A stretch of 34,713 nucleotides of DNA. It comes from Acetofilamentum sp. (GTDB lineage Bacteria; Bacteroidota; Bacteroidia; Bacteroidales; DYOH01). Position 1 is the first letter of the stretch. Every line of letters begins with the position of its first letter. Shown here piece after piece: positions 7,049 through 34,412 of the stretch. The translations under genes and the position numbers were made by a program. The stretch lies in the NCBI GenBank assembly GCA_020720625.1, contig DYOH01000037.1:1-34713 (forward strand), in the 5' to 3' direction. The notes beneath the pieces were generated by a model, which worked only from the letters and a program-made list of their open reading frames with translations, was not told where the DNA came from and ran no database searches.

Positions 7049-9160
7049 ATGAAACACTTATTATTAATCTGGCTGTTTTTTATCCCTGTTATATTGATAG
7101 GACAAAACGAAACAACTCTTTCCAGCAATCAGGAAGCGATGCTGGCCGAAGATTTTATAGACGACGAGAACTTCTCCGATGCCATTAGATTATACAGAAA
7201 ACTACTGGAAATGGATACCACAAATTCTGAAATTAATTTTAAACTCGGATTTTGTTATCTAAACACTGCAAACGAAATAACTAATGCCGTTTTTTTTCTC
7301 GAAAAGTCTATTGAATACTTATCTGCTGATAAGAAAAAGAAAAAGGATAATGCCCCTATTGAAGCTTTTTATTATCTCGGAAAAGCTTATCAGGTCAATG
7401 GTCAATACGAAAAGGCCATTGAAATTCTTAATCGACTTAAAATAGATTTGGGTGGTAGCGACAAAGAACTCGAAGCCGCTATTGACCGACTTCTTTTTAG
7501 ATCGCAAAATGCACTCGAATTAGTGAATAATCCGGTAGCTATGACGGTAAAAAACATGGGACCCGTTATTAATTCTGATTATACCGACCATAGTCCGGTG
7601 GTTAATGCTGCCGAAGATATGATGATTTTTACTTCGCGCAGGGAAGGTAGTGTGGGCGGAAAACTAATGCGCGACGGAGAGTATTACGAAGATTTATACG
7701 TATCTTATAAAGACGAAGAAGGTAATTGGGGGGTGCCCAGAAACATGGGGCAACCAATAAATAGCACTGAGCACGAAGCCACTGTTAGTTTGTCGCCCGA
7801 TGGAAATAAGCTGTTTATTTATCAATCTATTGATAATGGCTCTATTTTAGTAAGCGAATTTGATGGCGACGATTGGGGAAAACCTGTTATGCTTAGTGAA
7901 TCTATTAATACAAAGTCGCGCGAAACATCGGCATCTGTTTCGGTAGACGGTAATGTAATATTTTTTACCAGCGATAGAAAAGGTGGATTTGGTGGTTTGG
8001 ATGTTTATATGGCAAAAAAACTACCCAATGGCCAATGGGGCGAAGCACAAAATCTTGGAAATACCATTAATACTGAGTTTGACGAAGAAGGACCTTATAT
8101 TCACCCAGATGGTAAATCGCTTTATTTTAGCTCTAAAGGACATAAAAATATGGGCGGATTTGATATCTTCCGTTCAACTCAAACTGAGTTTGGTACTTGG
8201 GGAACTCCCGAAAATTTGGGCTATCCGATTAATACCACCGGCGACGATGTGTTCTTTATTCCATCGGTTGATAAGCAAAGAGCTTACTATGCATCTTTTC
8301 AGCCTGATGGCTTTGGACATTCTGATATTTATCTGATGAATATATCAACAAAAGAAGACGCTAGTCCTACATTGGTTCGTGGACAGGTGGCCATTTGTAC
8401 CGGAAAAATTCCTACCATGACGGTTACCAGCAGAAATGTTGAAACCGATGAGATTATTAGCATTGTGAAGCCTAACCGAAGGGATGGAAAATTTATGCTT
8501 ATTTTCAATAAACCCGGACGATATGAAATTGAATACGAAGTAAGAGGCGAAATTGTAAACAAAGAATTTTTAGCAATTGCACAAAATCAGCTCGGAACTG
8601 AAATTAAAAAGGTTGTGAAACTCAAATCAGGTACTCCATGCGACGCCACTTTCGATTTATTAAGCTCCGAAGAGGCTGAAGAAAAAATGCTTGGTGTTAT
8701 TTTTTACAATGGTCAATATTTCGACGAACAAATGGAAGTGGAGAATATTTTATTTCCTTTTGGTCAGGCAGGGCCAATTATTTCGAACGAGAGTCTTGAT
8801 AAACTTGCTACATATTTGGTTTTCAACGAAGAAGCAAGGGTCGAAATTGGTGCTTATGCCGACGCAATTGGCAGCGAGGATGCAAATATTAAAATTACTC
8901 AGAAAAGAGCTCAGGTGGTGGTAGAATACCTTATATCCAAGGGAGTAAAGGCAAATCAGCTAAAACCGGTAGGATATGGCGAAGCCAATCCAATTGCACT
9001 AAACGAAAATGAAGATGGCTCATGGAACAAGGATGCTCAGAAATACAATAGAAGAATAGAATTTAGAGTTTTAAAACAAGGATCTAAAAAATTACTTATT
9101 AAACCAATGTCTGATATTCCCGAGAAATATAAAAATCCGGATTATATATTTAAAATATAA
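7049..9160 (+). CDS. PorE-like OmpA-family protein (TPR, PD40 propeller, OmpA)
   Basis: A secreted periplasmic or outer-membrane-associated protein with the domain plan known for the T9SS component PorE. It has a signal peptide (residues 1-18, hydrophobic, ending near IGQ). TPR-like helices cover about 28-155. PD40/WD40-like propeller repeats at about 170-430 carry motifs such as FTSDRKGGFGGLDVY near 305 and FSSKGHKNMGGFDIF. A carboxypeptidase-regulatory-like beta domain spans about 438-545. A C-terminal OmpA peptidoglycan-binding domain at about 580-690 has AYADAIGS and RRIEFRV. The OmpA aspartate and arginine expected to hold diaminopimelate appear present. It lies 58 nt after the E2 gene, and its paralog starts 4 nt after its stop. 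The family is often annotated only as OmpA family protein; PorE orthology is inferred from architecture, since several paralogs occur in these genomes. Confidence 0.85.
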   Translation: MKHLLLIWLFFIPVILIGQNETTLSSNQEAMLAEDFIDDENFSDAIRLYRKLLEMDTTNSEINFKLGFCYLNTANEITNAVFFLEKSIEYLSADKKKKKDNAPIEAFYYLGKAYQVNGQYEKAIEILNRLKIDLGGSDKELEAAIDRLLFRSQNALELVNNPVAMTVKNMGPVINSDYTDHSPVVNAAEDMMIFTSRREGSVGGKLMRDGEYYEDLYVSYKDEEGNWGVPRNMGQPINSTEHEATVSLSPDGNKLFIYQSIDNGSILVSEFDGDDWGKPVMLSESINTKSRETSASVSVDGNVIFFTSDRKGGFGGLDVYMAKKLPNGQWGEAQNLGNTINTEFDEEGPYIHPDGKSLYFSSKGHKNMGGFDIFRSTQTEFGTWGTPENLGYPINTTGDDVFFIPSVDKQRAYYASFQPDGFGHSDIYLMNISTKEDASPTLVRGQVAICTGKIPTMTVTSRNVETDEIISIVKPNRRDGKFMLIFNKPGRYEIEYEVRGEIVNKEFLAIAQNQLGTEIKKVVKLKSGTPCDATFDLLSSEEAEEKMLGVIFYNGQYFDEQMEVENILFPFGQAGPIISNESLDKLATYLVFNEEARVEIGAYADAIGSEDANIKITQKRAQVVVEYLISKGVKANQLKPVGYGEANPIALNENEDGSWNKDAQKYNRRIEFRVLKQGSKKLLIKPMSDIPEKYKNPDYIFKI

Positions 9161-9164
9161 GTAA

Positions 9165-11894
9165 TTGAATATTTTTAAAATATCTTTTTTGGGGGCGTTG
9201 TGCCTATTTATTACATTATTGAATATTGGAAAGATTCAGGCTCAAAGTAGTGCAATTCCTTCCGAACTGAACCCTATTGTTCAGTTAGTAGAAGAAAATC
9301 GGTATTTTTTAGCGCACGAAAAACTGAAAGAATTGGGCAAGGATTTTCATAACAATTTTTATTTTCAATTTTACAGTGGTATAACTACCTTGTTTTTAAA
9401 TATTGAAAGGCCTAAGAGTTTGGCTTACTTCAAAAAGGCCATTTACATTGCGTCCGGATTAAAAAAATTTCCGCAGGCTAATTTGATTATGGCAAAATTT
9501 TATTTGGCCAAAACTTATTTCTTGTTGAATCAAATTGATTCAGCATATTATTTGCTAAATAGACTTTATGCCATAACTCCGGCTTATAAATCGGAGCTCC
9601 GAAAAGAAATCAGCGATTTAATAAACTATTGTAATGTAGCGAAATCTCAGATGGGGCGTGCTCAACGCGTTTCCGTTAATCCTGTTTTTGGACTTAATTC
9701 TGTATTTAACGATCATAGCCCATTATTTACAGGAAATGAAGAAATTTTTGTTTTTACTTCAACAAGAGGCGGAAGCACAGGTGGTAGAATTTCTGAAAAT
9801 GGTGAATTTTTCGAAGACATATATTTTAGCACAAAGCGAGAAAATTCTTATCGCAGTCCTGCACGATTAAGTCAGGATTTGAACACCGATAAGCACGATG
9901 CCGCGGTTTGGATATCCTTGGATGGAAGAGAATTATTCGTTTATAATGATATTTCCGGAAATGGGGATATTTATACTTCGGAAATGCTGGCTGATGGAAA
10001 TTGGAAAAATCCGGAACCTCTTAATGTAATTAATACTGATGCAAGAGAAACCTCGGCTTTTAAATCGGACGACGGAAATTTTATCTTTTTTACCAGTGAT
10101 AGAAAGGGTGGTTTTGGTGGGCTGGATATTTATATGATTGAAAAACTCCCTAACGGATTGTGGAGTGAAGCGCTAAATTTAGGGGCTACAGTTAATACTG
10201 CTAAGGACGAAGAGACTCCTTTCTTTCATCCGAATCAAAAATTATATTTCTCGTCGAAAGGGCACAGCAATATGGGGGGCTACGATATTTTTGTGAGCGA
10301 CAGAACTGGACGAAATGCTTGGGCTATTCCGGCTAATTTGGGTTTTCCCATTAATTCTACTGATGATGATTTGTGTTTTTGGCTTTCTACTGATGGATTA
10401 AGGGCTTATCTTTCTTCGGGCCGATTCGGTGGAAGGGGGCGAAGAGATATATATTTTGCTGAGTTTCAGGAGTCTTATCGAACGGGATTTACACTTGTTT
10501 CTGGTGTTGCAAAAGTTGAATCAGGGTATCTCGATTTTTTGCGCATCATTTTGGATAATAAATTATCAATGAGCGAATACAGAGTAAATATCTCTAACGG
10601 ACATTTTATTTTTCCCGTTAGAAACAATTATACTTATGATGCTACTTTTCGGGCTTCCGGAAATCAATCTCAAAGAATTGATTTTATGGTGCCTGAAAAT
10701 AAAAGTAACAACGAACTGCATATTTATTCTCTGGATACTGTATTTCTGCATTCTCCCATAATTCCGGTTGATTCTATTATCGAAAAGCAATTGGTTCTGA
10801 AGAGTATTTATTTCGAAAATATTGATTTTTTTGAAGCGGAGGATGATTTTCTTCCAAATAGTCAGAAAGTCGAAACTAAAATAAATCTTGATTTTGATGT
10901 AGAATTTTCTGATGTAACTCAGGATATAATTTCTCAAAGCTTTGAGCCAATTTTTGTTCAGCAGAAAAAGGAAAATCTACCAGCCTTCTTCATTGCTTCA
11001 GATTTCACATTTCCTTCAAATTCTACTAACTTTTATGCAAATAATGGTCTTTCGGATTTGATTATGTTTCTGAATAAAAATAAATCGGCCGTAATTCGTC
11101 TTATCGGTTATACCGATGGCATCGGAAGCGAAGATTTTAATAAAGAACTTGCCTTGAACAGAGCGCTTTCGGTGGAACATTTTCTCCTACAAAAGGGAGT
11201 GGCTGCCAATCAGATAATAGTGAATCGAAATAGTGAAAATACTCTGCTTTTTGATGAGAATATTTCCGATAACAAATTACTCAATTCGGCTAGAGCTTCA
11301 AACCGGAGAGTGGAAATTCACCTTGAAAAACCATCTAAAGATGCATTTCTTGTTGTGCAACCTATAAGTGTTGATTCTGCATTGTTGAATCATTATAATT
11401 CTCCGCATAAATTATTTTCTGATACTTTGATTCTGCCCGAATTTTTATATTCTGTTGAATTGATTTCTACTCCGGCTGAGATTGATTTGCCTGAAAAATT
11501 CGGACCTTTTAAAATCGAAATAAAACGCTCTAATAGCGGTGTATACTCATATTTTATAGGATATTTCGAGATTAATACTGATGCACTTTATTGGCTTAGA
11601 GAAATTAGGAAGCGAGGTTTTAGTTCGGCCCGCATTATTTTAGAGTCTACAAAAGATATTCATATTAACTACTATTATTCTATTCATCTGCTAAGTTCCG
11701 AAAAGCAGGTAGATAAGCAATTGTTCGGTAATTTAGAGAGAGTTATCGAAAAAAAAGAAAAAGAGTATTTTGTTTATTACTACGGTCAGTTTATTAGCTT
11801 GAGCGAGGCTGAAAGAGCTCGGTTAAAGGTTTGGGAATCTGGATTTAAAGATGCTTTTATTATCATAAACTATTTGAATAATGCTAAGCAATGA
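9165..11894 (+). CDS. Second PorE-like OmpA protein with SPOR-like C-terminal repeats
   Basis: A 909-residue paralog of the gene before it. It has a signal peptide (1-26, ending IQAQ), a TPR-like helical region at about 30-160, and PD40 propeller repeats at about 175-440 with the same FTSDRKGGFGGLDIY signature. A divergent linker of about 190 residues follows. An OmpA domain at about 630-720 has GYTDGIGSED and NRRVEIHLE. The last 130 residues look like two degenerate SPOR-type repeats: GPFKIEIK ... YFIGYF ... LREIRKRGFSSARII, and YYYGQF ... AERARLKVWESGFKDAFII. Translation starts at TTG 9165, because that is the only start that keeps the signal peptide; the first in-frame ATG is far inside. 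Its end overlaps the GNAT start by 14 nt. A role in envelope or T9SS anchoring to peptidoglycan is inferred. Confidence 0.82.
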   Translation: MNIFKISFLGALCLFITLLNIGKIQAQSSAIPSELNPIVQLVEENRYFLAHEKLKELGKDFHNNFYFQFYSGITTLFLNIERPKSLAYFKKAIYIASGLKKFPQANLIMAKFYLAKTYFLLNQIDSAYYLLNRLYAITPAYKSELRKEISDLINYCNVAKSQMGRAQRVSVNPVFGLNSVFNDHSPLFTGNEEIFVFTSTRGGSTGGRISENGEFFEDIYFSTKRENSYRSPARLSQDLNTDKHDAAVWISLDGRELFVYNDISGNGDIYTSEMLADGNWKNPEPLNVINTDARETSAFKSDDGNFIFFTSDRKGGFGGLDIYMIEKLPNGLWSEALNLGATVNTAKDEETPFFHPNQKLYFSSKGHSNMGGYDIFVSDRTGRNAWAIPANLGFPINSTDDDLCFWLSTDGLRAYLSSGRFGGRGRRDIYFAEFQESYRTGFTLVSGVAKVESGYLDFLRIILDNKLSMSEYRVNISNGHFIFPVRNNYTYDATFRASGNQSQRIDFMVPENKSNNELHIYSLDTVFLHSPIIPVDSIIEKQLVLKSIYFENIDFFEAEDDFLPNSQKVETKINLDFDVEFSDVTQDIISQSFEPIFVQQKKENLPAFFIASDFTFPSNSTNFYANNGLSDLIMFLNKNKSAVIRLIGYTDGIGSEDFNKELALNRALSVEHFLLQKGVAANQIIVNRNSENTLLFDENISDNKLLNSARASNRRVEIHLEKPSKDAFLVVQPISVDSALLNHYNSPHKLFSDTLILPEFLYSVELISTPAEIDLPEKFGPFKIEIKRSNSGVYSYFIGYFEINTDALYWLREIRKRGFSSARIILESTKDIHINYYYSIHLLSSEKQVDKQLFGNLERVIEKKEKEYFVYYYGQFISLSEAERARLKVWESGFKDAFIIINYLNNAKQ

Positions 11895-12717: not shown

Positions 12718-15700
12718 CTATTTTTTTAGTATAAAGGATTCATTAGCAGTGATTTTGCCCATATTAACTCGTATGAAATATTGGCCGGGTTTTAAGCCGC
12801 GAACATCAATCATGTAAATTTTTGTAGCAAAATCAATAGTTTCATGAATTACAAGCTGACCCTTGGTATCAAATACTATTAATTCCAAATTTTGGGTGCT
12901 ATATTCAGGTAACATCAAGCTTATCCAGTCTATTGCCGGATTTGGATAAATTTTCCAACCCAATTCTGATAATTGAACAATACCGGTAATGTAATTTATT
13001 GTAAAGGTATTAGAAACTGTATTCTCATTTCCTACTGCATCTTCTGCAACTCCGGCAGCTACACTTACACTAACTTGTCCGGCTGCGCCCGGAGTAATAT
13101 CTGCTGTCCAGCTTTTTCCGCTTACTGTTTCTACAAGATTAGATGCGCTGCCATTTGTTACATTTATGTCGGCAAGCACAAATCCATTTACTACTTCGCT
13201 AAAACTAATAGATATTTCAAACGGCGATTCTTCAGTAGAGCCGGAAACATTTGAGCTAATTGTTACACTTGGAGCTTCGGTATCTTGTTCGAATTCAATA
13301 CTAAAAGTATTAGAAACAGTATTTTGGTTTCCAGCGGCATCTGTAGCTTTATTAGCTTCAATTATTGCAGTAACTGTACCTTCGGCGATGGGCGAAATAT
13401 TAACTGTCCATTCTTTTCCGGCAGCAGTTTCGCTAAGGTTTGAAGCCGTTGCATTTGTAAGTGTAATATCTGCTAATTCAAATCCATTTACTACTTCGCT
13501 AAAAGTAATTGTAAGTGCAAAGCTAGTTTCTTGTGTAGTTACGGAAATGTTGCTGCTTAATACAACGTCTGGTTGTGTAATATCATACGTAACCGTTTTC
13601 GATACTGCGAGATTCGGATTTCCGGCCAAATCAAAAATAGCATTTGCAGCGATAGAAATGCTTACGTCGCCTTCTGATGAATTGCCTATTTCTACTATCC
13701 AATTTTTGCTATCAACTTGCCTGAAATCGGTAATATCACCATTAACAGCAGTAATTTGAGCTTGTGTTAAACTTTGCAATGCTTCGCTTGAAGTTACTGT
13801 AAATACAATCGGAAGAGCGTTGCTTATTTCGTCGGAAACAGTGATTAGCAATTCTGGTGCCTCGTTATCTAAATTCACTTCCAAAAGGTTCGACACCACA
13901 TTATCCAATCCGTCTGCATTGGTAACTTTGTTAGCATCTAATTGTAATGTAATTAATCCCGAATTAAGTGCAGTTAGCGCAACAGAATAAATTCTTCCTG
14001 CCACAATTTCGGTGAGATTGCTTAACGTTGCATTGCTAGCCGTAAAATCGGTAATATCAAAACCAATAACCGGGGTATTAAATACAACAGAAACGGTAAA
14101 ATTGTTGGTATTTAAATTGTTGCCGGATTCGGAGATTAAATTCACGGTAGGTACCGGGAGCGCTTCAAAATTTTGGCCGGGCATCCAGATTGCCTGATTT
14201 TGTAGATGGCCATTTTTAGAGAAAGCTCCGCCAAAATAGATGTTTGTTGCATCGGCATACATGGCATTGATTCCTTGTGTTGAGCTTTCTGCCAGTCCAT
14301 AACCTAATGTTTGCCAATCTGTACCGTCGAAAACGGCAACATGATTTATAAATTCATCATCGGAGAATCGTAAATCAAAGAATCCGCCTATATACACTTT
14401 ATTATCAGAGCTAATGGCTACATCTTGTACGGTGAAACTTCCTGAACTTCTGTCTATACCTTCGCCCATTGCTTTCCATTGTGTTCCATCCCAAGCGGCA
14501 ACGCCATGCGAACGTATATTACCGGCAAACATAAAATCGCCAGCCGCTATTAGCTCATTGGTATTATTGTTCCAAGCCAAACCATTTACACTGTTAGCCA
14601 AACCGCTCATGCCATTTCCTAGAGGCAGCCAGTTTGTTCCATCCCATTTTGCTACGCGCAAAACTTCGGTAGCACCGGAATTTTCGAAAATTCCGCCTGC
14701 GTAAACATTTCCGCTTTCGTCGGCTGTAAGTGCCGATACTTTGGCATCAAGACCATCGCCAACAGCTTGCCAGGTATTGGTAGCTATATGAAAACGGCGT
14801 ATGTAAGAGTAGGCTGGATCGGTACTATTAAAGGTAAATCCACCAATGTAAACATATCCGTTGTGTACTAAAATGTCATATACACCACCCGAATTTGGAC
14901 CTTTTGTTTGTGTTGTTTCAAAAAACGTAGGGTCTTCGAGTGCGCTCCATGTTCCTTCCGAAACATCAAATTTGGCAACTCTACCTACTGAAACTCCACC
15001 AATAGAGCTAAAATCGCCTCCTACATATAAGTCACCATTTTCGTCCTGGGCCATACATCTAATAAAATTGTAATGAGAATAGTCAATTCCCGGTACTTGT
15101 TCCCAAGTGTTGCTTGCAGGAATATATCTTGCAAGATTTTTCATATCGGTATTGCCACCCACGCTTAAAAATCCGCCACAGAAATATACTTTTTCGTCGG
15201 CAGTAGATTTTTGAATATCAAAAACTTCGCCTTCAATGATGCCATCGAAATCCAGAAACCATTGTTTATCGTTGGCACCCAGATTGGCATCGTATTTAAA
15301 CGAATAAGTGCGCGAAGCAGCATTGGCCTGATTATTTGCATCTACTACAGCATTGGCTTTTAGTTTAATACTTACTATTCCATTGGTTTTTGGATAAATT
15401 TTGGTTTTCCAAAGGAGTTTGTCTACTTGTTGCATTGGAATGTCGGCAATTGAATTTACAAGTTCTAAATCGGATAATTCTAAATCTTGTATCTCTTCAG
15501 AGAATTCGATGATAACTTCTACTGCACTTTGGTTGCTCACACTATCGGTATTTATTATCATGCCGGCAATTGGAGCAATATCGGCATCAAAGTTGATATT
15601 TGGATTCCAAATAGCTTGACGGGCAATATCGTTTGTATTGCCAATTGGTTTGTAGAAAGCCCCTGCACAATAAATATTACTTCCATCTGCAAGCATTGCA

Positions 15701-18700
15701 TTTATACCTTGTGTCGAACTTTGGCTTAATCCAAGTCCCATTGGCTCCCATTGATTATTTTTCCATACGGCTACGCTGTTTAGAAAAAGATCGTCGGAGA
15801 AGCGGGTTTCGAAAAATCCACCAATATAAATTGTTCCATTAGCATCTACCACTACAGATTGGGCAATTCCATTTACGCCACTATTCATGCTAAGCCATTG
15901 TGTTCCATCGTATGCAATAATGCCTTGCGAGTAAATATTTCCGGCTTTTGTAAACGAGCCTGCTACATAGAGCATACCATCGTGCCAAACCATACTAGCT
16001 ACACTTCCATTAAGTCCACCCGAAACGTCGCTCCATGCTGAGCCGTCCCATTTGGCAATATTCGAAACCGTTTGTCCACCAGCCAGGGTAAATGTGCCGC
16101 CCACGTATAAATTGCCATCAGGGTCGGATGCAAAAGCTGATACTTTGGCTGAGTTTCCATCAACAAAACCAATTCCTGAACCAACAGCTTCCCATTTTTT
16201 AGTCTGCACATTAAATCTGCGAATATAACGATAGGCCGGATCATCATTATTAAAAGTCCATCCACCAATGTAAACGTAGTCGTCGAGCAGATGTATGGCA
16301 TACACACCACCTGATAATGGGCCACGCATTTGGTCGTCGTCTTTAAAGGTTTTATCTATCAGACTATACCAGCGACCTTCGCTCACATTAAAACGAGCCA
16401 CCCTGCCAGCCGGAACTCCGCCTATGGTATTAAAATCGCCACCTACATACATGTTGCCATTTTCGTCGGAAACCATGCAGCGGATAAACATGTTGTGTGT
16501 GTAATCTATACCCGGGAGTCCTTCCCAAAGATTTGCCTCCTGATCATATCTTACAATGTTTTTATGGTCAGTATTACCGTTTACGGATAAGAATCCACCG
16601 GCAAAGTAAATTTTGTTATCTGCAGCAGCTTTATGCACCCCAAAAACTTCGCCTTCAATATTTCCTTTAAATCCGAAGAACCAGTTATTATCTGGATTGG
16701 GCAAATGCAAATTGTAGTTTACTGTAACAACATCAGATGCAAGTGTTGCATTGCCATTGGCATCTACAGCTACATTGGCCGGAATAGCCATGCTTACATC
16801 ACCTTCTGCTAGCGGTTCGATGCGAATTGTCCATTTCTGGTCGGTAATTTGTGGAGTAAAATAGATGATTGTGCCATTAGTTACCTGAATTTCAGATTGC
16901 TCGAATCCTATAACTGCTTCGGAGAATTTCAGCGTAAATTCGATTGGTGATTCTGCTGTTGGTGATGGAGTATTGGCAAATATGTAGGCTTGCGGCACTT
17001 TATCTGCTGTGAAATCCATATTTTCGTTCCAAATAGCATGATTAACCCTGAAATTTGTACCATCGGCCGGAATACCAAAATATCCGGCAAAAAATACATT
17101 TTTACCATCAGCAAAAGCCGTACTTACTCCTTGGGTGGTAGATATTCCAACACCACTTTCAAGTTTTTGCCAGTCGGTTCCATCAAAAATGGCTACATTG
17201 TTTAGTGGCATATCGTCGGAATACCGATGGGTGAAATAACCACCAATGTAAATTTTATTGTCAGCATCGGAAGTGATGGCTAAAACAGAATTACCTTCGA
17301 CACCTTTTCCCATGTTTAACCATTGTGTTCCATCCCATTTGGCAATGTATTGTACTGAAAGACCTTCCATTGTTGAAGTAAAGGCGCCGCCTGCGTAGAG
17401 CGTATTGTCATTCCAATGCAGTACAGATACACCATCGTTAAGGCCACTACCTAGAGCCGACCAATTGGTTCCATTCCATTTGGCAACTCCATTTGCTGTA
17501 ATTCCTCCGGCAGTTAAAAATAATCCGCCCACATATAAATTGCCATTTCCATCGGTTTCCAATGCAGCAATTTTAACCAAGTCTGCGGCATTTGGGTCTC
17601 CATCAACACCTGAACCTACGGCTTCCCATTTGTTGGTAACAAGGTTATAACGTCTTAGGTATCTGTATTCGTTTAGCGAACTGTTGAAAACATATCCACC
17701 AATATACAGATAATCGCCCATTAGTTCAATGGCATAAACGCCGCCTGAAATCGGACCACGCATTTGCTCTTCCTCGAAAAAACTAATGTCGCGCAATGCC
17801 GACCACTTGCCTGTGGCTACATTAAATTTTGCAACCCGTCCGGCTTCAATACCGCCGATGCTGCTAAAATCGCCACCAACATAAATGTTGCCATCTTCGT
17901 CCTCAACCATGCATCGAATAAAATTGCTGTGGGTATAATCTATTCCGGGAATTTGTTCCCAATGATTGCTTTCAGGCACCCATCTGGCAATATTTTTCAT
18001 ATTGGTATTTCCGGCAAGAGATAAAAATGCACCGCAAACATAGATTTTGCCGTCAGCTTTGCTTTTTAATGCATCAAAAACTTCGCCTTCAACGGCCCCA
18101 TCAAAATCGAAAAACCAATTTTTATCCGTTACCGGAGGTGTGTCGTTATAAATTGCAGTATATAGAGTTGATGCTGTATTATTATTGCCTGTGGCATCAG
18201 TTGCCACATTGGCCGGAATTTGCACAGTAATTTCGCCATTGGCAGTAGGTGTAATTCTCACTTCCCACCTTCTATCAGTTTCCAATGGAGTGAAATAAGA
18301 AATTGTACCATTGGTAACCACAATATCTGATTGAGTAAAATTGCTTACAATTTCGCTAAATTTTACAGAAAGGCTTATTGGATTGTCGTAAACAATACCT
18401 GTTGGCCCTAGAACGAATGCACTTGGGGCAAGGTCCTCTGTAAAATCTTTGTTTTCGTTCCAAATGGCATGGTTAATTCTGAAACTTGTACCATCGGCAG
18501 GAATGCCAAAATATCCAGCGAAATAGATATCTTTTCCATCGGCAAAGGCGGTACTAACACCTTGGGTAGTGGAAAAACCAACGCCATCTTCAAGCTTTTG
18601 CCATTCGTTTCCATCGAAAACGGCAACATTATTCAGGGGCATGTCGTCGGAGAATCTGTGTGTAAAATAACCACCGATATAAACTTTATTGTCGGCATCG

Positions 18701-21054
18701 GCAGTAATTGCCAATACTGAATTTCCTTCAACGCCCTGTCCCATGGCAGCCCATTGGGTGCCATCCCACTTTGCTACGAACTGAACTCTTTGTCCGTCGG
18801 TAGTTTTTGTGAAAGCACCACCGGCATATAGCAAGTTATTGTTCCACAAAAGTGCAGATACTCCGTCATTAAGCCCTGTTCCAAGTGCCGACCAATTGGT
18901 GCCGTCCCACTTAGCAATTCCATTGGTGGTGATACCTCCGGCAGTTAAAAATAATCCGCCCACATATAAATTGCCATTTCCATCGGTTTCCAATGCAGCA
19001 ATTTTAACCAAGTCTGCGGCATTTGGGTCTCCATCAACACCTGAACCTACGGCTTCCCATTTGTTGGTAACAAGGTTATAACGTCTTAGGTATCTGTATT
19101 CGTTTAGCGTACTGTTGAAAACATAGCCACCAATATACAGGTAATCGCCCATTAGTTCAATGGCATAAACTCCTCCGGTGGATGGGCCTCTTACTTGTTC
19201 TGTTTCAAAAAAAGTGGGGTCTTTTAGCGCCGACCATTGTCCGGTAGCTACATTGAACCTTGCTACCCGACCGGCCGGAACTCCGCCAATATTGCTAAAA
19301 TCGCCACCAACGTAAATGTTTCCATTATTGTCTTCAACCATGCACCGAATAAAGTTGCTATGGGTATAGTCTATTCCGGGAAGTTGCTCCCAAGTGTTGT
19401 TTAAAGGGTTCCATCTGGCAATATTTTTCATATCATCGTTGCCATCTACAGATAGAAATGCACCGCAGTAGTATACTTTTCCATCAGCTTTCGACTTTAG
19501 CGCATCAAATACTTCGCCTTCAACGGCTCCATCAAAATCGAAAAACCAATTTTTATTAGTAATGGGTGGGTTACTGCTGTATGTAACTGTGTAAAGTGCC
19601 GATGCCGTGTTATTATTGGATGTTGCATCGATACATACATCAGCAGGCACTTGAACAGAGATTTCGCCTTCATTTACGGGTGTTATGCGAATTTCCCACT
19701 CATCGTTGCTGCCAACAGGTGTGAAATACGAAACAGTTCCGTTCGTAAGCACAATATCATCTTTTACAAATCCGCTTACCGCTTCGCTGAATCTTACCCT
19801 CAAAGAAACCGGATTGCTGTAAACAATACCCGTTGGTCCTAAAATATATGCCTGAGGTGCAACATCAGCAGTAAAATCGATTGTTTCGTTCCATAAAGCT
19901 TGCCCCAGTTTGGTATTTGGATTGCCATTTGGATCGGCAAATACACCTGCAAAATAGATATTTTTGCCATCGGCAAATGTAGTATTAACGCCTTGTGTAG
20001 AGCTGGCTCCGAGCCCATCTCCTAAACTAACCCAGTTGGTATTATCCCAAACTGCAACGTTATTTATTACGGCATTGTCGGAGCTGCGTGCGTCAAAATA
20101 TCCACCAACATATATTTTACCATCAGCATCCACAGAGATACTATAAACAGAAGCTACACTGCTTTCTCTTTTTAGGCCTCCGGCCATTGATTGCCATTGA
20201 GCACCATCCCAATAAGCAACTCCCTCTGTAGTAACTCCACCCACAGATGTAAAGTTGCCACCCATATAGAGCTTATTGTTATTCCATGCCAGAGAGTAGG
20301 CGGCAGCATTGTCGTCTATTCCGCTTCCCAATGCAGACCAAGAGCTTCCATTCCATTTGGCAACACCATTTACAACAGTTCCTCCAGCGTTAGTGAAAGC
20401 TCCCGCTGCATAAAGATTTTTATTTTCGTCAACAGCAAAGGCCGAAACTTTATAATCGAGGCCATCGCCAACTGCTTCCCATTTTTTTGTTGATGTATTA
20501 AATCTTCGGATATATCGAAGTGCCTCATTGTCGTTGTTAAATGTATATCCGCCAATATAAACGTAATTGTCAATAACGGTAATTGCATATACACCGCCTG
20601 CCGATGGCCCTCTCATCTGGTCTTCATCGGCAAATGTCGGGTCTTTAAGGCTTTCCCAGGTGCCTTCTGCTACGTTGAATTTTGCCACACGTCCTACCGG
20701 TAGGCCGTTAACAACCGAAAAATCACCTCCAACATATAAATTTCCATCAGCATCTGTTGCCATACATCGAACAAAGTTCGTGAATGTGTAATCAATTCCC
20801 GGAACTTGTTCCCAAAGGCTGTTAACAGGATTCCATCGTGCCAGATTTTTTAGATTTGTGTTACCATTTGCGGACAAGAATCCGCCACAAAAATATATTT
20901 TGTTATCGATAGGTGATTTGATAATGTCGAATGCTTCGCCATCAATTTTTCCATCGAAATTAAAGCGCCAATGCTCATTTTGGGCATTTAGATTTGTGAA
21001 ATTGCCTGCTAGAATTATCCACAGGAGAACATGTAAAATAGGTTTCATAGGCAT
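12718..21054 (-). CDS. Giant T9SS-secreted protein, five propeller-Ig units
   Basis: A 2778-residue predicted surface or secreted protein with a signal peptide (about 1-25, ending NLNAQ). It has five homologous units of roughly 475 residues. Each shows seven spaced blade-like motifs of the form (L/I)Y-x-(G/A)-G-x-F, consistent with a seven-bladed beta-propeller. A bacterial Ig-like domain follows each unit (FSEAVSGF..DI.LTNGT.., ending in a DATGNNNTAS-like segment). Three more Ig-like domains then sit in tandem before a C-terminal T9SS type A sorting domain (about 2698-2778, WKIYPNPAIDWISL, ending SFILKK). A cysteine pair in blade 1 (CGGF and RCM) recurs in four of five units. Units 2 and 3 share near-identical DNA. 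It stands alone, with terminators on both sides. The function is unknown; adhesion or glycan binding is only a guess. Start ATG at 21054 or two codons later. Confidence 0.88.
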   Translation of the reverse strand: MPMKPILHVLLWIILAGNFTNLNAQNEHWRFNFDGKIDGEAFDIIKSPIDNKIYFCGGFLSANGNTNLKNLARWNPVNSLWEQVPGIDYTFTNFVRCMATDADGNLYVGGDFSVVNGLPVGRVAKFNVAEGTWESLKDPTFADEDQMRGPSAGGVYAITVIDNYVYIGGYTFNNDNEALRYIRRFNTSTKKWEAVGDGLDYKVSAFAVDENKNLYAAGAFTNAGGTVVNGVAKWNGSSWSALGSGIDDNAAAYSLAWNNNKLYMGGNFTSVGGVTTEGVAYWDGAQWQSMAGGLKRESSVASVYSISVDADGKIYVGGYFDARSSDNAVINNVAVWDNTNWVSLGDGLGASSTQGVNTTFADGKNIYFAGVFADPNGNPNTKLGQALWNETIDFTADVAPQAYILGPTGIVYSNPVSLRVRFSEAVSGFVKDDIVLTNGTVSYFTPVGSNDEWEIRITPVNEGEISVQVPADVCIDATSNNNTASALYTVTYSSNPPITNKNWFFDFDGAVEGEVFDALKSKADGKVYYCGAFLSVDGNDDMKNIARWNPLNNTWEQLPGIDYTHSNFIRCMVEDNNGNIYVGGDFSNIGGVPAGRVARFNVATGQWSALKDPTFFETEQVRGPSTGGVYAIELMGDYLYIGGYVFNSTLNEYRYLRRYNLVTNKWEAVGSGVDGDPNAADLVKIAALETDGNGNLYVGGLFLTAGGITTNGIAKWDGTNWSALGTGLNDGVSALLWNNNLLYAGGAFTKTTDGQRVQFVAKWDGTQWAAMGQGVEGNSVLAITADADNKVYIGGYFTHRFSDDMPLNNVAVFDGNEWQKLEDGVGFSTTQGVSTAFADGKDIYFAGYFGIPADGTSFRINHAIWNENKDFTEDLAPSAFVLGPTGIVYDNPISLSVKFSEIVSNFTQSDIVVTNGTISYFTPLETDRRWEVRITPTANGEITVQIPANVATDATGNNNTASTLYTAIYNDTPPVTDKNWFFDFDGAVEGEVFDALKSKADGKIYVCGAFLSLAGNTNMKNIARWVPESNHWEQIPGIDYTHSNFIRCMVEDEDGNIYVGGDFSSIGGIEAGRVAKFNVATGKWSALRDISFFEEEQMRGPISGGVYAIELMGDYLYIGGYVFNSSLNEYRYLRRYNLVTNKWEAVGSGVDGDPNAADLVKIAALETDGNGNLYVGGLFLTAGGITANGVAKWNGTNWSALGSGLNDGVSVLHWNDNTLYAGGAFTSTMEGLSVQYIAKWDGTQWLNMGKGVEGNSVLAITSDADNKIYIGGYFTHRYSDDMPLNNVAIFDGTDWQKLESGVGISTTQGVSTAFADGKNVFFAGYFGIPADGTNFRVNHAIWNENMDFTADKVPQAYIFANTPSPTAESPIEFTLKFSEAVIGFEQSEIQVTNGTIIYFTPQITDQKWTIRIEPLAEGDVSMAIPANVAVDANGNATLASDVVTVNYNLHLPNPDNNWFFGFKGNIEGEVFGVHKAAADNKIYFAGGFLSVNGNTDHKNIVRYDQEANLWEGLPGIDYTHNMFIRCMVSDENGNMYVGGDFNTIGGVPAGRVARFNVSEGRWYSLIDKTFKDDDQMRGPLSGGVYAIHLLDDYVYIGGWTFNNDDPAYRYIRRFNVQTKKWEAVGSGIGFVDGNSAKVSAFASDPDGNLYVGGTFTLAGGQTVSNIAKWDGSAWSDVSGGLNGSVASMVWHDGMLYVAGSFTKAGNIYSQGIIAYDGTQWLSMNSGVNGIAQSVVVDANGTIYIGGFFETRFSDDLFLNSVAVWKNNQWEPMGLGLSQSSTQGINAMLADGSNIYCAGAFYKPIGNTNDIARQAIWNPNINFDADIAPIAGMIINTDSVSNQSAVEVIIEFSEEIQDLELSDLELVNSIADIPMQQVDKLLWKTKIYPKTNGIVSIKLKANAVVDANNQANAASRTYSFKYDANLGANDKQWFLDFDGIIEGEVFDIQKSTADEKVYFCGGFLSVGGNTDMKNLARYIPASNTWEQVPGIDYSHYNFIRCMAQDENGDLYVGGDFSSIGGVSVGRVAKFDVSEGTWSALEDPTFFETTQTKGPNSGGVYDILVHNGYVYIGGFTFNSTDPAYSYIRRFHIATNTWQAVGDGLDAKVSALTADESGNVYAGGIFENSGATEVLRVAKWDGTNWLPLGNGMSGLANSVNGLAWNNNTNELIAAGDFMFAGNIRSHGVAAWDGTQWKAMGEGIDRSSGSFTVQDVAISSDNKVYIGGFFDLRFSDDEFINHVAVFDGTDWQTLGYGLAESSTQGINAMYADATNIYFGGAFSKNGHLQNQAIWMPGQNFEALPVPTVNLISESGNNLNTNNFTVSVVFNTPVIGFDITDFTASNATLSNLTEIVAGRIYSVALTALNSGLITLQLDANKVTNADGLDNVVSNLLEVNLDNEAPELLITVSDEISNALPIVFTVTSSEALQSLTQAQITAVNGDITDFRQVDSKNWIVEIGNSSEGDVSISIAANAIFDLAGNPNLAVSKTVTYDITQPDVVLSSNISVTTQETSFALTITFSEVVNGFELADITLTNATASNLSETAAGKEWTVNISPIAEGTVTAIIEANKATDAAGNQNTVSNTFSIEFEQDTEAPSVTISSNVSGSTEESPFEISISFSEVVNGFVLADINVTNGSASNLVETVSGKSWTADITPGAAGQVSVSVAAGVAEDAVGNENTVSNTFTINYITGIVQLSELGWKIYPNPAIDWISLMLPEYSTQNLELIVFDTKGQLVIHETIDFATKIYMIDVRGLKPGQYFIRVNMGKITANESFILKK
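12980..14159 (-). repeat. Four tandem Ig-like domains of the giant protein
   Basis: Four consecutive domains of about 95-100 residues each, at roughly 13868-14159, 13577-13867, 13280-13576 and 12980-13279. The last two are most alike, sharing FSEVVNGF.LADI and a DAAGNQNTVSNTF-type ending (DAVGNENTVSNTF in the fourth). They form the stalk between propeller 5 and the T9SS sorting domain. Confidence 0.72.
14160..15270 (-). repeat. Propeller unit 5 of the giant protein
   Basis: The header is QWFLDFDGIIEGEVFDIQK. Blade motifs are YFCGGF, YVGGDF, YIGGFT, YAGGIF, IAAGDF, YIGGFF and YFGGAF. The Ig-like domain after it is the first of the terminal stack. Limits are approximate. Confidence 0.72.
15271..16690 (-). 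repeat. Propeller-Ig unit 4 of the giant protein
   Basis: The header is diverged (NWFFGFKGNIEGEVFGVHK). Blade motifs are YFAGGF, YVGGDF, YIGGWT, YVGGTF, YVAGSF, YIGGFF and YCAGAF, then an Ig-like domain (FSEEIQDLELSDLEL). This unit lacks the blade-1 cysteine found in the other four. Confidence 0.72.
16691..18125 (-). repeat. Propeller-Ig unit 3 of the giant protein
   Basis: Same header as unit 2. Blade motifs are YVCGAF, YVGGDF, YIGGYV, YVGGLF, YAGGAF, YIGGYF and FFAGYF, then an Ig-like domain (FSEAVIGFEQSEI). Contains one of the two 175-bp identical tracts. Confidence 0.75.
17504..17678. repeat. 175-bp identical tract, copy A (unit 3)
   Basis: Identical base for base to 18935-19109, offset 1431 bp, exactly 477 codons. 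The tract starts at CCTCCGGCAG and ends at CGTTTAGCG, with mismatches immediately on both sides. A near-identical stretch continues about 55 bp further to the right. Lies inside the giant gene, covering blades 3 and 4. Confidence 0.95.
18126..19556 (-). repeat. Propeller-Ig unit 2 of the giant protein
   Basis: The header is NWFFDFDGAVEGEVFDALK, shared exactly with unit 3. Blade motifs are YYCGAF, YVGGDF, YIGGYV, YVGGLF, YAGGAF, YIGGYF and YFAGYF, then an Ig-like domain. It is the closest relative of unit 3 in both protein and DNA. Confidence 0.75.
18935..19109. repeat. 175-bp identical tract, copy B (unit 2)
   Basis: Second copy of the tract at 17504-17678. Flanking unit sequence differs clearly, including at third codon positions, so the identity is local and points to recent intragenic conversion or duplication. 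Confidence 0.95.
19557..20980 (-). repeat. Propeller-Ig unit 1 of the giant protein
   Basis: First of five in-gene units, opening with the WRFNFDGKIDGEAFD version of the unit header. Its seven blade motifs are YFCGGF, YVGGDF, YIGGYT, YAAGAF, YMGGNF, YVGGYF and YFAGVF, followed by an Ig-like domain (FSEAVSGF, NGTVSYF). Limits are approximate. Confidence 0.75.
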
Positions 21055-28934: not shown

Positions 28935-31900
28935 ATGACGATGAACCGAAAACGAAAAACAGGTCTTGTCTGGTTACTTCTTTTGTTAGTAATCAATTTG
29001 CAGGCACAAAATGTGGAGCTGATTTCGACGGATAATTCGCAGCAAAATTTTCTAAATGCCTATCGATGGGTGTTGGAGAGTTCGGTGAACGATTATCATG
29101 GTACTTCTTCTTTTTTTGACAAAGATTTATTTCCTGCCTATGGAGAGCACTCCGTTTATTGGGTAATGTCGGGGGTAAATAAAGGTAAGTTTTTAAACTA
29201 TACACCTAAACCTACAGAATATGAAACTGTTACAAGTGTGTTGGGAACTAACTACAATTTAAATGCAGTAGAGCATTTGTCTGTTCAATTTAAGGGAAAT
29301 GCCCAAAGTATTGCAATATTTAAAAGTGAGATGATTTTTGCTGAGCAATCGGTGAGCTGGCAAAGTAATTATTTTAAGTATATTATTGATAGTTATCTGT
29401 TTAAAGACGCATCGTATTTTGTAGATGAGCAGAATATTCTCCAGAATGGCTTTTCGGGAAATACCAAAATGCTTATTGTTCCGGCCTTTGCTGAGGGCGA
29501 GACTGACCCAAAAACATACATTGACAGTGTTTTTCTGAAAAATCCTGGAATTGTGCAAAAGATTGAACAATTTTTGCAAAATGGAGGAACTATCTATACC
29601 GAAGGAAATGCAGCTTATTTTGCGGCTAAATTGGGATATCTGGATACGACCAATTTTAATTGGAAAGATGTGTATTCGCCTGCCGAAGGTATGGCCGAAA
29701 TTAGCTTTAAACAAAATAGCGAACCTTTTTCCTTTGTAGCCGAAAATACCAGTTTATATGCATCGTCCATTCCCAAAATTGATAATCTGGAAACAAGCCA
29801 GATTTTAGCTACCCTAAATACTGATAATCGGGCGGTTTATTTCAAATTGGATAAAAGCAACGGAACCATTTTGTGCAATTTGGGTATCCCGGCAGCCGGA
29901 GGTTATCCTGGCGTGGCAGAAGGTAGCAGGCAATTGCAGTATACATTTAACGCTATACTTTCGGCATTTTTATCGCCTCTGGATATTACTCGTTCCGTTT
30001 TTAATGTAATTCCAAATGATATAATTGCCAGCGAGAATGCTGTGGCTTACGATGCAGTAGATACTTTTTCTGTGATTATACAGTTGCGAAATCTTACCGG
30101 AAGCACAATATCCAATATACAAACCACCGAAATTATTAGCTCATATTTTAATTTTCTCGATATAGCTACTGCCGGCGTTAATGTGGATGTGCATGGCGAT
30201 ACATTAAATTTTTCGGGTATCTCGGTAGGAGCACATAGCGATGTCATCATCAAATACCGTCTTCTAACACCTTCTCCCACAGATTCGGTTCACCAAATTG
30301 TGGATCAATTTCTAATTCGTTCATCGTTTATTAATGTTTCTTCGAATAAAACATATTATCAATTCGAAAACAGAAATTTCGCGCTTAACAAATACCGCAA
30401 TTATGCCGATGTAATGTTTAGCGCTCGCATTGTAGCAGATGCCGATGTAAATTGGAAAAACTTTCTGGGGCTCGATTATCAGCCTTTCAAGGTATTTATG
30501 ATCATGGAAAACAAAGAGCGTACATCGGCTATAAATACGGTTTATACCCAATTTGTGCCCAAAGATGTGCCATTTTATTGGACTGATAATTCTATCAATA
30601 TACCTATTTTGAAGACTCCGGGAGGCAAATTTGTAGATGTGTTGCGCGGAAGCAATAGCGAAACAAATCCCGATTTTGATATGGACAGTGATGGAAATCC
30701 CGATGTTTGGCTGGATACGGCTTCTATTTATCCCAAAGGGTATATCCTTACCGAAGACTCCGTTTATTGGCTTAATCCTTGGAAACATTTAATAGACAGC
30801 ACTGCAACGGCAGTTTATGAGGATATTGACCACGATGGGATGGTGGCTCTGGATAATGATGGTGATGGAATAATTGATGTGCATGAGCCAGGCGATAAAA
30901 TTAGGGTTTGGAAAATTACCTGGAATGTGCAAACTATGCCCGGATATCAGTATTACGACCCTTATTGCTCTTACGAAATGTGGATTGATCCACCGGATTT
31001 AGTGCCGCTTTCAAAAGGGGTGGGTTATGCTTACGGAAATTTGCAGAAAGATGAAAACATGTTTTATCCTTTTGCCCCGGATATTGAATTGGCCAATTTG
31101 AACGACACATCCTGGTCTTACTGGATGGAAAGAGACGAAGACGGTAAAGTGATTTGGAAAAACCTGATTTTGCAATCGATAAGCAATTACGAAGGATTTG
31201 CTTTTGTTGATTCTTCTTATCAAATGAAGCCTACTGATTCTCTACTGGGGCTGGTGCCTCAGCCGCACAGAGAGTTTATTGCAGTGGTTTCGCTTGGTGG
31301 CGAAGAAATTGATATGACGCATCCAACTCCGCAAAAGTCGTTTTATTCTAAGGTGGACTATGAAACTATTTTTGGCGAACAACGCACTACTCCTATACGA
31401 ACTACTTATACTTATTATGCTCCATTGCCTAATCCTTTACAATTTGAGTATCTCAGCAATGGTTTTACACTTACCGACCCCGAAACAAAGGATACTTTGA
31501 TGGAATTACCCAAATTTGGAATGGCAGATATTCATTTTGAAATTAGTGCTTCTACTGAATATACTTACTATTGGATAAGAAATGTGGGATACGATGTGGA
31601 TTATAATGATCCTTCGCTTTCCATTGAGGATGTAAATGAGTTGGGTGATGGTGTTTTTGGCTATTTTATTTATGAAATTCCAAAAGGTTTCGGAGATTAT
31701 AAAATTAGTCTTCCAAAAAAAGAAAGCGGTGAATTTGATTTGGCTTCTATAGTAAAAATAGATGGTACAAATTATCAAAAATGGATTGATAACCCAAATA
31801 CAGTTAACGAGTTGGAGATTTGGGAAACACCTTTTACCTATCAGGTATATGTGCCTCAGATATTGATTCCGCCTGCGCTCGACGACGACAATTTTGATGA

Positions 31901-34412
31901 TGTGGATGATTGGATTGACGACCGCGGTGACCGTTTTCAGTCGGAAACCGGATATTTGCACGATGCTTTTATGTTGGGAAATGGAGAAGATTATCCAATT
32001 GGAAGCGAAGGCGTTTTTCAACACGAAGATTTTGGCTATGCCATCATTGATTCAGGCTGGTCGGCAGGTGTTGATAATACCTATGGCGATGACCATTTTG
32101 AAACACTCGGAAAAACAAGAATTACTATTTTGGCTCAATACGAAGGCAAAGGAAAAGAAGGCTTGGTGGAAATTGGAAAAGGTGGCACCCTCGTTTGTGA
32201 AGAAATTTTCGGAGGTTCACCTTGGGTGATTCACAGCCATATTTTAAATGCTTATGCACAAGGGGTAAATATTCAGTTGAGCAGTGAGATATCTCCGCAA
32301 AACATTCAGTACGGAAAAGATACGGTTTACATTAAACATGTAATCGAAGATTTGGATGAGCCGCGCGATTTCGATGATAAATTTTCGCCCTACAACAGCT
32401 CGTATGGCTTTGGTGTTTCTTCCGCAACCGTTATGGCAGGCGGAAAAGACCCTTGCAGCCTTATTTCTCCAGATTTGGAAACATTCTCGATCACCGATTT
32501 GGATTACGACAAGGCCGAAATTACACTTCTTCCATTGGCCGATGGTTCAAATCCTGATTTAAGTGATTTCCCAAAACAAGTAAGTGGAACTTTTATCGAA
32601 TTTAAGGTTGAAATCAATAATGGTTCCGACCTTAATTGGGAAAATGTGAAAATGCAGGCCGATATTCCTATAGAATTGGGTGCTTCGGATGTGGTGCTTA
32701 ACTATGTGGCCTATCCTCGTCCGTTGGTGCCTGGCGACGATATTGGTACTTTCTCGGCCGGATGGCGGTTTAACCAACCCGAAGGTGAAGTACTGGTGAA
32801 AATGGGCGATTCGCTGAATTTATTGCAGCCATCGCGCAGGGCCTATTTTGTTTTTCTACTGAAATTAGATCCCACACTTGCCAATGGCGTATACAGTATT
32901 GGGTTTACTTGTAGCGGCACGGAGGTGAATTACAAAGGAATATCGCCGGCAGAGCTAAATCTGGAAATTCCGGATGCTTATTTTAGTGTTACCAATAAAG
33001 ACGAAAATGGTAGACCATTAGATTATCAAAAAACGGTGATCGGACAAGCTGATTTGCTGCAAACCAATATACTGGGTAATCAATTTGTTTTGCCTTTAAA
33101 TAATGCTAAATGGTCGTTGACTAACTTAAATATAAGCGATTTTGATACTTTAAGCAACAGTTTGCCGGCTTCGGTAGTCGGAAATAACGAAACTATTGAT
33201 TTGGTGCAATTCAAGGCTTTTCCCAATTTGCAATACAATAAACTGTTTATTCTGGAGCAAGTAGAAACCAATGCCCAAAGTTTGGCCGACACTTTAGCCA
33301 CATTCTCTGAAAATTTGCAGTATACTTATCGCGAAAAATTGTATCAGGTGGAAGATACGGCCTTAAAAGTGCTGCCACTCGGCCCAATGATTGAGATTGT
33401 GCGTAAATTAGAAAGCATCAACGGTGTGCCATATACGGGCGAAGCCATTTCTTTTCAAAATTCGGTTATTTTACTGGGGGTAAACGTGGCTGTGCGAAAT
33501 TATGGCAACGATTTGGCAAAAGATGTACAGGTTCAAATTTATAATGATTCTACCTACGCTATTGAAGCTGATAGTTTACCCGAAAATTGTGAGGTGGAGA
33601 ATAATCATGTGCGCTACTCCCTCGGAACAATGATTCCGGGAGGCACAAAAGAAACTACACTTTATTACAGGTTTACTGATATCGATGATGATGATTTGAC
33701 AGAAGTATTAAAATCTTTCAGCTCTGCTTTTTCCGGCGTTTTGGTAAATGCTCCTTTCTATGTAATCGATTCTATTCCTTTAAATGTGAGTGTGTATGAT
33801 TTTAAATTGAAAAACATTAGTCTGGAAGATCTTGGCAATGAATTGTATAGTATTACGGCCACTGCTGTAAATAGGGGCATTCCTGCAACTAATGTGAAAT
33901 TTGAAATAGTACCGGTAATCGATGGCGTAAACCAGAATCCGATAGGCGAATCTACCATTTTCGTGTATCAAAATCGTCAAATTGCACAATTGTCGGCCCA
34001 ATATTCCGCCGAAAATCAAACAGCCGATATTACCTTTAAAGGAGTAATTGATTATGATAATGCTTTTGTAGAGCTTTTTGAAACCAACAACGAAGAGTCA
34101 ATTGTAATAGAGGTAGACACTACATCCGGAATTGCCGATTTGGCGCAATATCGTTTTAGCATTTATCCAAATCCGGTGAGCACTGTGCTCTATTTTAATT
34201 ATACACTTATTCAATTACCCGATAAAATCAGACTACGAATTATTAATTCTTCCGGACAGATGATAGATGAAAAGATAATTTCTGACTATAAATCAGGCGA
34301 AAATCAATTGGAGTATTTGGTTCCGGAATTGTCAAAAGGCAGCTATTTTTACCAGTTCGAAGCCAAGTTTGGCGAACGAAAACAGCTCTTTAATGGCATA
34401 TTTATAAAATAA
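28935..34412 (+). CDS. Large T9SS cargo protein with GATase-like N-terminus
   Basis: A 1825-residue predicted secreted or surface protein. It has a signal peptide (1-25, ending NLQAQ). The region at about 190-240 has LIVPAFAEG ... FLQNGGTIYTEGNAAYFAAKLG, resembling the class I glutamine amidotransferase-like (DJ-1/PfpI) fold without an obvious catalytic cysteine. DUF11-like beta domains follow near 350-445 and 1210-1310. Acidic loops DFDMDSDGNPDVWLD (about 580), DIDHDGMVALDNDGDGIID (about 630) and DDDNFDDVDDWIDDRGD (about 980) look like calcium-binding loops. A CARDB-like domain lies near 1622-1735. The C-terminus is a T9SS type A sorting domain (FSIYPNPVSTVLYFN, ending GIFIK). ATG at 28935 or 28941. 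It is third in the lipoprotein-barrel-cargo run and ends before a strong terminator. Overall role unknown. Confidence 0.85.
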   Translation: MTMNRKRKTGLVWLLLLLVINLQAQNVELISTDNSQQNFLNAYRWVLESSVNDYHGTSSFFDKDLFPAYGEHSVYWVMSGVNKGKFLNYTPKPTEYETVTSVLGTNYNLNAVEHLSVQFKGNAQSIAIFKSEMIFAEQSVSWQSNYFKYIIDSYLFKDASYFVDEQNILQNGFSGNTKMLIVPAFAEGETDPKTYIDSVFLKNPGIVQKIEQFLQNGGTIYTEGNAAYFAAKLGYLDTTNFNWKDVYSPAEGMAEISFKQNSEPFSFVAENTSLYASSIPKIDNLETSQILATLNTDNRAVYFKLDKSNGTILCNLGIPAAGGYPGVAEGSRQLQYTFNAILSAFLSPLDITRSVFNVIPNDIIASENAVAYDAVDTFSVIIQLRNLTGSTISNIQTTEIISSYFNFLDIATAGVNVDVHGDTLNFSGISVGAHSDVIIKYRLLTPSPTDSVHQIVDQFLIRSSFINVSSNKTYYQFENRNFALNKYRNYADVMFSARIVADADVNWKNFLGLDYQPFKVFMIMENKERTSAINTVYTQFVPKDVPFYWTDNSINIPILKTPGGKFVDVLRGSNSETNPDFDMDSDGNPDVWLDTASIYPKGYILTEDSVYWLNPWKHLIDSTATAVYEDIDHDGMVALDNDGDGIIDVHEPGDKIRVWKITWNVQTMPGYQYYDPYCSYEMWIDPPDLVPLSKGVGYAYGNLQKDENMFYPFAPDIELANLNDTSWSYWMERDEDGKVIWKNLILQSISNYEGFAFVDSSYQMKPTDSLLGLVPQPHREFIAVVSLGGEEIDMTHPTPQKSFYSKVDYETIFGEQRTTPIRTTYTYYAPLPNPLQFEYLSNGFTLTDPETKDTLMELPKFGMADIHFEISASTEYTYYWIRNVGYDVDYNDPSLSIEDVNELGDGVFGYFIYEIPKGFGDYKISLPKKESGEFDLASIVKIDGTNYQKWIDNPNTVNELEIWETPFTYQVYVPQILIPPALDDDNFDDVDDWIDDRGDRFQSETGYLHDAFMLGNGEDYPIGSEGVFQHEDFGYAIIDSGWSAGVDNTYGDDHFETLGKTRITILAQYEGKGKEGLVEIGKGGTLVCEEIFGGSPWVIHSHILNAYAQGVNIQLSSEISPQNIQYGKDTVYIKHVIEDLDEPRDFDDKFSPYNSSYGFGVSSATVMAGGKDPCSLISPDLETFSITDLDYDKAEITLLPLADGSNPDLSDFPKQVSGTFIEFKVEINNGSDLNWENVKMQADIPIELGASDVVLNYVAYPRPLVPGDDIGTFSAGWRFNQPEGEVLVKMGDSLNLLQPSRRAYFVFLLKLDPTLANGVYSIGFTCSGTEVNYKGISPAELNLEIPDAYFSVTNKDENGRPLDYQKTVIGQADLLQTNILGNQFVLPLNNAKWSLTNLNISDFDTLSNSLPASVVGNNETIDLVQFKAFPNLQYNKLFILEQVETNAQSLADTLATFSENLQYTYREKLYQVEDTALKVLPLGPMIEIVRKLESINGVPYTGEAISFQNSVILLGVNVAVRNYGNDLAKDVQVQIYNDSTYAIEADSLPENCEVENNHVRYSLGTMIPGGTKETTLYYRFTDIDDDDLTEVLKSFSSAFSGVLVNAPFYVIDSIPLNVSVYDFKLKNISLEDLGNELYSITATAVNRGIPATNVKFEIVPVIDGVNQNPIGESTIFVYQNRQIAQLSAQYSAENQTADITFKGVIDYDNAFVELFETNNEESIVIEVDTTSGIADLAQYRFSIYPNPVSTVLYFNYTLIQLPDKIRLRIINSSGQMIDEKIISDYKSGENQLEYLVPELSKGSYFYQFEAKFGERKQLFNGIFIK

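Follow-up and report, generated by a model that had tools for sequence, protein, structure and literature searches.

Introduction

Propeller repeats with GG-containing four-stranded blades are described by the Kelch, DUF5122 (delta-60) and Rax2 families (PF01344, PF17164, PF12768 and TIGR02608), whose models cover blades or a partial propeller. Type A cargo of the type IX secretion system (T9SS) can combine a signal peptide, Big_12 Ig-like domains and a Por_Secre_tail sorting domain. PorZ, a T9SS surface protein, has two propellers and a sorting domain. In animals, LRP5, LRP6 and LRP1 carry extracellular strings of propellers and EGF domains that capture ligands. Coronin-7, EML and Utp proteins are intracellular eukaryotic proteins with two propellers.

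Here, we describe a bacterial protein in which five seven-bladed propellers, three of them modelled, are strung between Ig-like domains. It has the blade type of the Kelch, DUF5122 and Rax2 repeats, but its unit is a full asymmetric propeller of seven blades with its own conserved blades 1-3. It shares signal peptide, Big_12 and sorting domain with the type A cargo and differs from it in the five propellers between the Ig domains. It resembles the LRP proteins in that several propellers, predicted to be extracellular, are separated by small domains; the LRP propellers are six-bladed YWTD propellers with EGF domains, and we claim no relation between the two. It has tandem propellers in one chain as do Coronin-7, EML and Utp proteins, but these are intracellular, eukaryotic and two-propeller proteins. 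The component parts are of known kinds and their arrangement is unusual or new; among the papers listed on delta-60/DUF5122 repeats, tandem propellers and T9SS propeller or kelch proteins, none describes such an array in its title or abstract opening. We propose, as a reading that we regard as evenly balanced, that the protein may serve in multivalent capture of a ligand at the cell surface (adhesion or scavenging) through a single type of binding head present in five copies.

Domain organization of the array protein

The window, that is, the whole stretch of 34,713 nucleotides analysed, contains one ORF for a protein of 2778 aa (Table 1). The original prediction of a single T9SS cargo with five propellers between Ig-like domains was borne out in its architecture. 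Big_12 (PF19078) was found above cut-off in 8 places: one domain follows each of the five propellers, and the remaining three precede the sorting domain near the C-terminal end, as had been predicted for an Ig-like stack. The units start at W29, W503, W980, W1458 and W1932, with a spacing of 474-478 aa, and each unit of about 475 aa comprises one propeller and one Big_12 domain.

Table 1. Features of the array gene in window coordinates.
Feature	Coordinates	Strand	Basis
Whole gene, predicted T9SS cargo, 2778 aa	12718..21054	-	one ORF
Signal peptide, residues 1 to ~25, apparent cleavage NLNA|QNEH	20980..21054	-	by eye
Propeller 1, seven blades	19879..20976	-	AlphaFold2 model and PDB match
Cys97-to-Cys56 stretch, unit 1	20764..20889	-	sequence and model strands
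Ig-like domain 1 (Big_12)	19555..19878	-	Pfam match
Propeller 2, seven blades	18448..19554	-	AlphaFold2 model
Ig-like domain 2 (Big_12)	18124..18447	-	Big_12 match
Propeller 3, seven blades	17017..18123	-	AlphaFold2 model
Ig-like domain 3 (Big_12)	16690..17016	-	Big_12 match
Propeller 4, without first Cys	15595..16689	-	alignment to modelled units
Ig-like domain 4 (Big_12)	15268..15594	-	Big_12 match
Propeller 5	14173..15267	-	alignment to modelled units
Ig-like domain 5 (Big_12)	13873..14172	-	Big_12 match
Three further Big_12 domains	12994..13869 (13579-13869, 13297-13584, 12994-13284)	-	
T9SS type A C-terminal sorting domain (PF18962, TIGR04183)	12745..12951	-	

The Por_Secre_tail domain spans residues 2702-2770 in Pfam (38.3 bits, cut-off 27), and NCBIfam concurs on a sorting domain (30.1 bits, cut-off 23). 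The signal peptide was read by eye, with Gln as the first residue after the apparent cleavage site. Moreover, a SprA_N match (E 2.9e-179) reveals a T9SS translocon component in the same genome, where 34 of 40 Por_Secre_tail matches lie over the cut-off. Signal peptide, type A sorting domain and SprA together support the assignment as a predicted T9SS cargo, which would be secreted and located at the surface.

The propellers matched the Pfam models DUF5122 (135.9 bits, cut-off 27), Rax2 (156.9, cut-off 28.8) and Kelch (79.9, cut-off 20.1), and the delta_60_rpt model of NCBIfam stayed below its curated cut-off (35 bits vs 76.5). The Pfam and NCBIfam scans returned no single family that covers the whole array. 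A likeness to VIM beta-lactamase was rejected as chance (NCBIfam 20 bits vs a cut-off of 500; PDB E 0.5).

Blade motifs and predicted structure of the units

Each unit had been noted to show seven motifs of the Y-x-G-G-x-F type. Seven per unit, 35 in total, were counted by hand in register when the motif was relaxed to Y/I/F as its first letter, G/A/S/C before the second Gly and F/T/V as its last letter; the literal form did not hold throughout and is found only 18 times. A single loose pattern gave 33 matches (one inside the signal peptide, with three true motifs missed), whereas 500 shuffled versions of the protein averaged 1.1 matches and never exceeded 5.

AlphaFold2 modelled unit 1 (residues 27-502, 14-sequence alignment) with a mean pLDDT of 92.6 and a pTM of 0.87. 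Apart from one extra short strand (267-269), the model has 28 strands that form seven blades of four, and the N-terminal strand 3-5 completes blade 7. A model of units 2 and 3 together (957 aa; pLDDT 87.9, pTM 0.79) has seven blades in each unit with the same strand order, and the closing strand comprises two residues, shorter than in unit 1. Consistent with the original prediction, the models of unit 1 and of the two-unit span thus give one closed seven-bladed propeller per unit, and units 1-3 are predicted to fold in this way. Alignment to the modelled units suggests that units 4 and 5 are seven-bladed propellers as well.

The best solved match of unit 1 was virginiamycin B lyase 2z2o_D (Z 28.2, rmsd 2.8, 284 residues), tied with WD40 proteins when entries within 1 Z are counted as ties, and 7big_A, titled a 7-bladed designer protein, scored Z 27.3. 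Foldseek gave the unit 1 model, which includes the Ig domain, a query TM of at most 0.46 among the 50 matches listed. These scores are modest; the fold was called from the strand order and the second structural comparison with its Z scores. The nearest PDB sequences are designed SAKe Kelch proteins and human Kelch domains, whose alignments cover only part of the unit; SAKe6AE (7on6), of a design series that we take to be six-bladed, matched at E 7.8e-10 with unit 1 and at 2.7e-9 with the unit profile.

These matches raise the question of whether each propeller could be a catalytic head of the oxidase, lyase or hydrolase kind. The lyase match, tied as it is with WD40 proteins, and a galactose oxidase homologue among the Foldseek matches listed would fit such a role, but the structural matches are at fold level only, with 11-12% identity. 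Both copper-radical oxidases and virginiamycin B lyase rely on histidines, whereas no alignment column holds His in 20 or more of the 21 units. This leaves the conserved copper ligands of a copper-radical oxidase without a counterpart, and we consider an enzyme improbable.

When the two-unit model was searched with Foldseek, the query TM was at most 0.25 throughout the 50 solved structures listed. PorZ (5m11) was the fourth match (E 1.4e-12), and PorZ is reported to deliver A-LPS to PorU (PMC8545088), which could point to a T9SS accessory that handles glycolipid or LPS. The query TM to 5m11 is only 0.21, so a two-unit arrangement shared with PorZ is not apparent, and the six NCBIfam matches include no PorZ model, although that library presumably holds one. 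Furthermore, the protein is unlike a core secretion part in that, within the order, 6 of 393 genomes match at 1e-60, its own counted, and its Verrucomicrobiota relatives have no detected sorting domain. An accessory of this kind is improbable in our view. Both roles, together with the spacer role discussed below, rank as less likely than multivalent capture.

A cysteine pair is not a fixed feature of the unit

It had been noted that four of the five units carry a conserved Cys pair in blade 1, taken to suggest a disulfide. The pair is present in units 1, 2, 3 and 5, and unit 4 lacks the first Cys. The proposed blade 1 disulfide fared less well. In the strands of the unit 1 model, Cys56 lies on strand B of blade 1, whereas Cys97, of the RCM motif, lies on strand A of blade 2. 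Among 22 related units, 11 have both residues, 6 the second alone, none the first alone and 5 neither, the last five all being units of gene L043. In the other 17 units the second Cys never varies, and the first is replaced by S, A or V in 6 of them. A fixed disulfide is unsupported, since the second Cys persists in units that have lost the first. That no unit carries the first Cys alone is compatible with a disulfide that was lost in some units. On these alignments the pair does not appear to be a fixed feature of the unit, and a disulfide is neither proved nor excluded.

Conserved residues are concentrated in blades 1-3

Of the 163 positions in blades 1-3, 38 are identical in 20 or more of the 21 units, whereas blades 4-7 have 23 such columns among 194 (Fisher p 0.005), and near-invariant polar columns, with Tyr counted as polar, number 13 vs 3 (p 0.004); both p values come from a bias noticed before testing, from columns that are not independent and from units that are related within a gene, five of the 21 belonging to one gene and five to another. 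Enrichment on one face (DA/BC vs AB/CD loops) was not significant, either for all such columns (27/161 vs 4/51, p 0.17) or for polar columns (7 vs 1, p 0.68). Ten polar residues (K43, R47, R70, D75, D85, D112, Y130, N147, R157 and Q328, numbered as in unit 1) are the same in all 22 units, G560 having been added for the 22-unit counts, and they span solo and tandem proteins from both Bacteroidota and Verrucomicrobiota. Given this identity, the copies look alike rather than specialised, and we read the array as copies of one binding head, not as five specificities. The conserved polar positions may serve structure rather than binding.

The propellers could instead be bulky beads that give length or cover as a spacer or stalk, with the working part elsewhere. 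Long surface proteins often contain Ig stacks and generic blades, and the non-significant one-face test also suits a spacer. The ten invariant polar residues argue against it, as does the occurrence of the unit alone behind a signal that looks lipoprotein-like by eye in three Bacteroidota genes; a spacer role is hardly possible for the unit in these solo proteins. We regard the spacer as doubtful.

The unit defines a narrow propeller subfamily

We searched for relatives at several taxonomic scales, where G000 is the own genome and the other G and L labels are genomes and loci in the comparison. Of the 119 relatives sampled, a number that includes the own genome, 7 had a match at E 1e-20 or better, and G000, G002, G038 and G067 matched at E < 1e-100; G056, G059 and G091 (E 1e-23 to 1e-25) were excluded from the unit alignment because only part of the unit matched. 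The distribution is patchy: G001, the sole genome of the same genus (78% complete), gave no match, the class sample gave 1 in 395 (1e-40, solo protein as query), and the phylum sample gave 1 in 395, the own genome only. A contig scan with the whole protein as query returned no matches. Searching the own genome with unit 1 found no other propeller match at E 0.001; contig C69 matched through the Ig part of the query. On this contig lies the one further Big_12 protein that the genome yielded (L034:1232-4228, 998 aa); it matches Big_12 eight times, and its sorting tail stays below cut-off.

Named genomes, when scanned, yielded 90 relatives, of which 80 at 79 loci were kept. L039-L044 contain full-length units of at least 484 bits each; the other loci had no stretch above 143 bits among the best 60 of 85 ORFs (at most seven stretches each). 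In these 60 ORFs, the stretch matched by the best-scoring generic relatives was mostly blades 4-5. Two loci, L032:3560-12001 and L031:2091-5042, encode long proteins with many generic delta-60-like blades, followed in L032 by a long row of repeats that look Ig/PKD-like by eye.

L039-L041 were counted as the same genes as those of G002, G038 and G067, and the L042 protein is that of G557, for which reason L124 (G557), with an identical protein, was left out. As judged from sequence, the unit is a narrow propeller subfamily, newly recognised here, with eight genes found. Four are multi-unit (G000 and L043 with five units, G002 and G038 with four) and four are solo (G067, G557, G560 and L044). 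The three Bacteroidota solo proteins are lipoprotein-like by eye, the L042/G557 one weakly, and all solo proteins can be seen as the one-head version of the same unit. Both four-unit proteins contain Big_12 and a sorting domain. L043 and L044 are recorded as Verrucomicrobiia; the five tandem propellers of L043:6592-12636 belong to the same subfamily and form a protein of 2014 aa, and neither Big_12 nor a sorting domain was detected in L043 or L044 at E 0.001.

Probable growth of the array by tandem duplication

In the unit tree, units of G000 and G002 pair by position (u1-u1, u4-u3 and u5-u4), and units 2 and 3 of G000 are sisters. Propellers 2 and 3 arose by a recent duplication, with 84% identity in amino acids and 80% in nucleotides. 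Among the Ig domains, 1 and 2 resemble each other most closely (63% aa identity); together with the propellers, this is consistent with duplication of one Ig-propeller block. Selection on propellers 2 and 3 is purifying (dN/dS ~0.10, a rough value because dS is near 1).

Under midpoint rooting, a branch with support 100/100 sets the Verrucomicrobiota units apart on one side, and the five L043 units separate from the solo L044 with support of 90/82 only. The Verrucomicrobiota five-propeller array is probably a separate expansion, which is favoured but not proved. If the same unit did expand twice separately, this would cleanly illustrate how whole propellers, as opposed to blades, are amplified.

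A possible role in multivalent ligand capture

In the multivalent capture that we propose, the protein would be exported by Sec and then by the type IX system, and the sorting domain would retain it at the surface. Five near-equivalent propellers, spaced by Ig-like domains, would display the same conserved residues of blades 1-3, perhaps with the blade 7 loop beside them as part of the displayed surface. A ligand that is repetitive or bound to a surface, for example a glycan, could thereby be held with avidity, and the array would have grown as Ig-propeller blocks were duplicated in tandem. Should all five heads bind one ligand, the protein would be a natural multivalent scaffold of full-size propellers. 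The gene neighbours in G000, G002 and G038 showed no common theme.

More tentatively, the genes may represent an undescribed subfamily with a conserved ligand surface on blades 1-3, arrayed independently in 4-5 copies in Bacteroidota (T9SS, with Ig spacers) and Verrucomicrobiota (no detected Ig), as a recurrent bacterial answer to the LRP type of multivalent receptor.

Other genes in the window

Several other genes were noted. On the minus strand, a 406-aa ORF at 1728-2948 appears to fuse an ACP (CitD-like) with an HpcH/HpaI (CitE-like) domain and adjoins CitF at 169-1722; these are citrate lyase genes. On the plus strand, two adjacent proteins at 7049-9160 and 9165-11894 combine a PD40 propeller with OmpA and are possibly envelope anchors. 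A second large T9SS cargo of 1825 aa lies at 28935-34412 on the plus strand, with the sorting domain as its sole Pfam match; upstream of it are a DUF5723 protein and a 567-aa ORF with no Pfam match.
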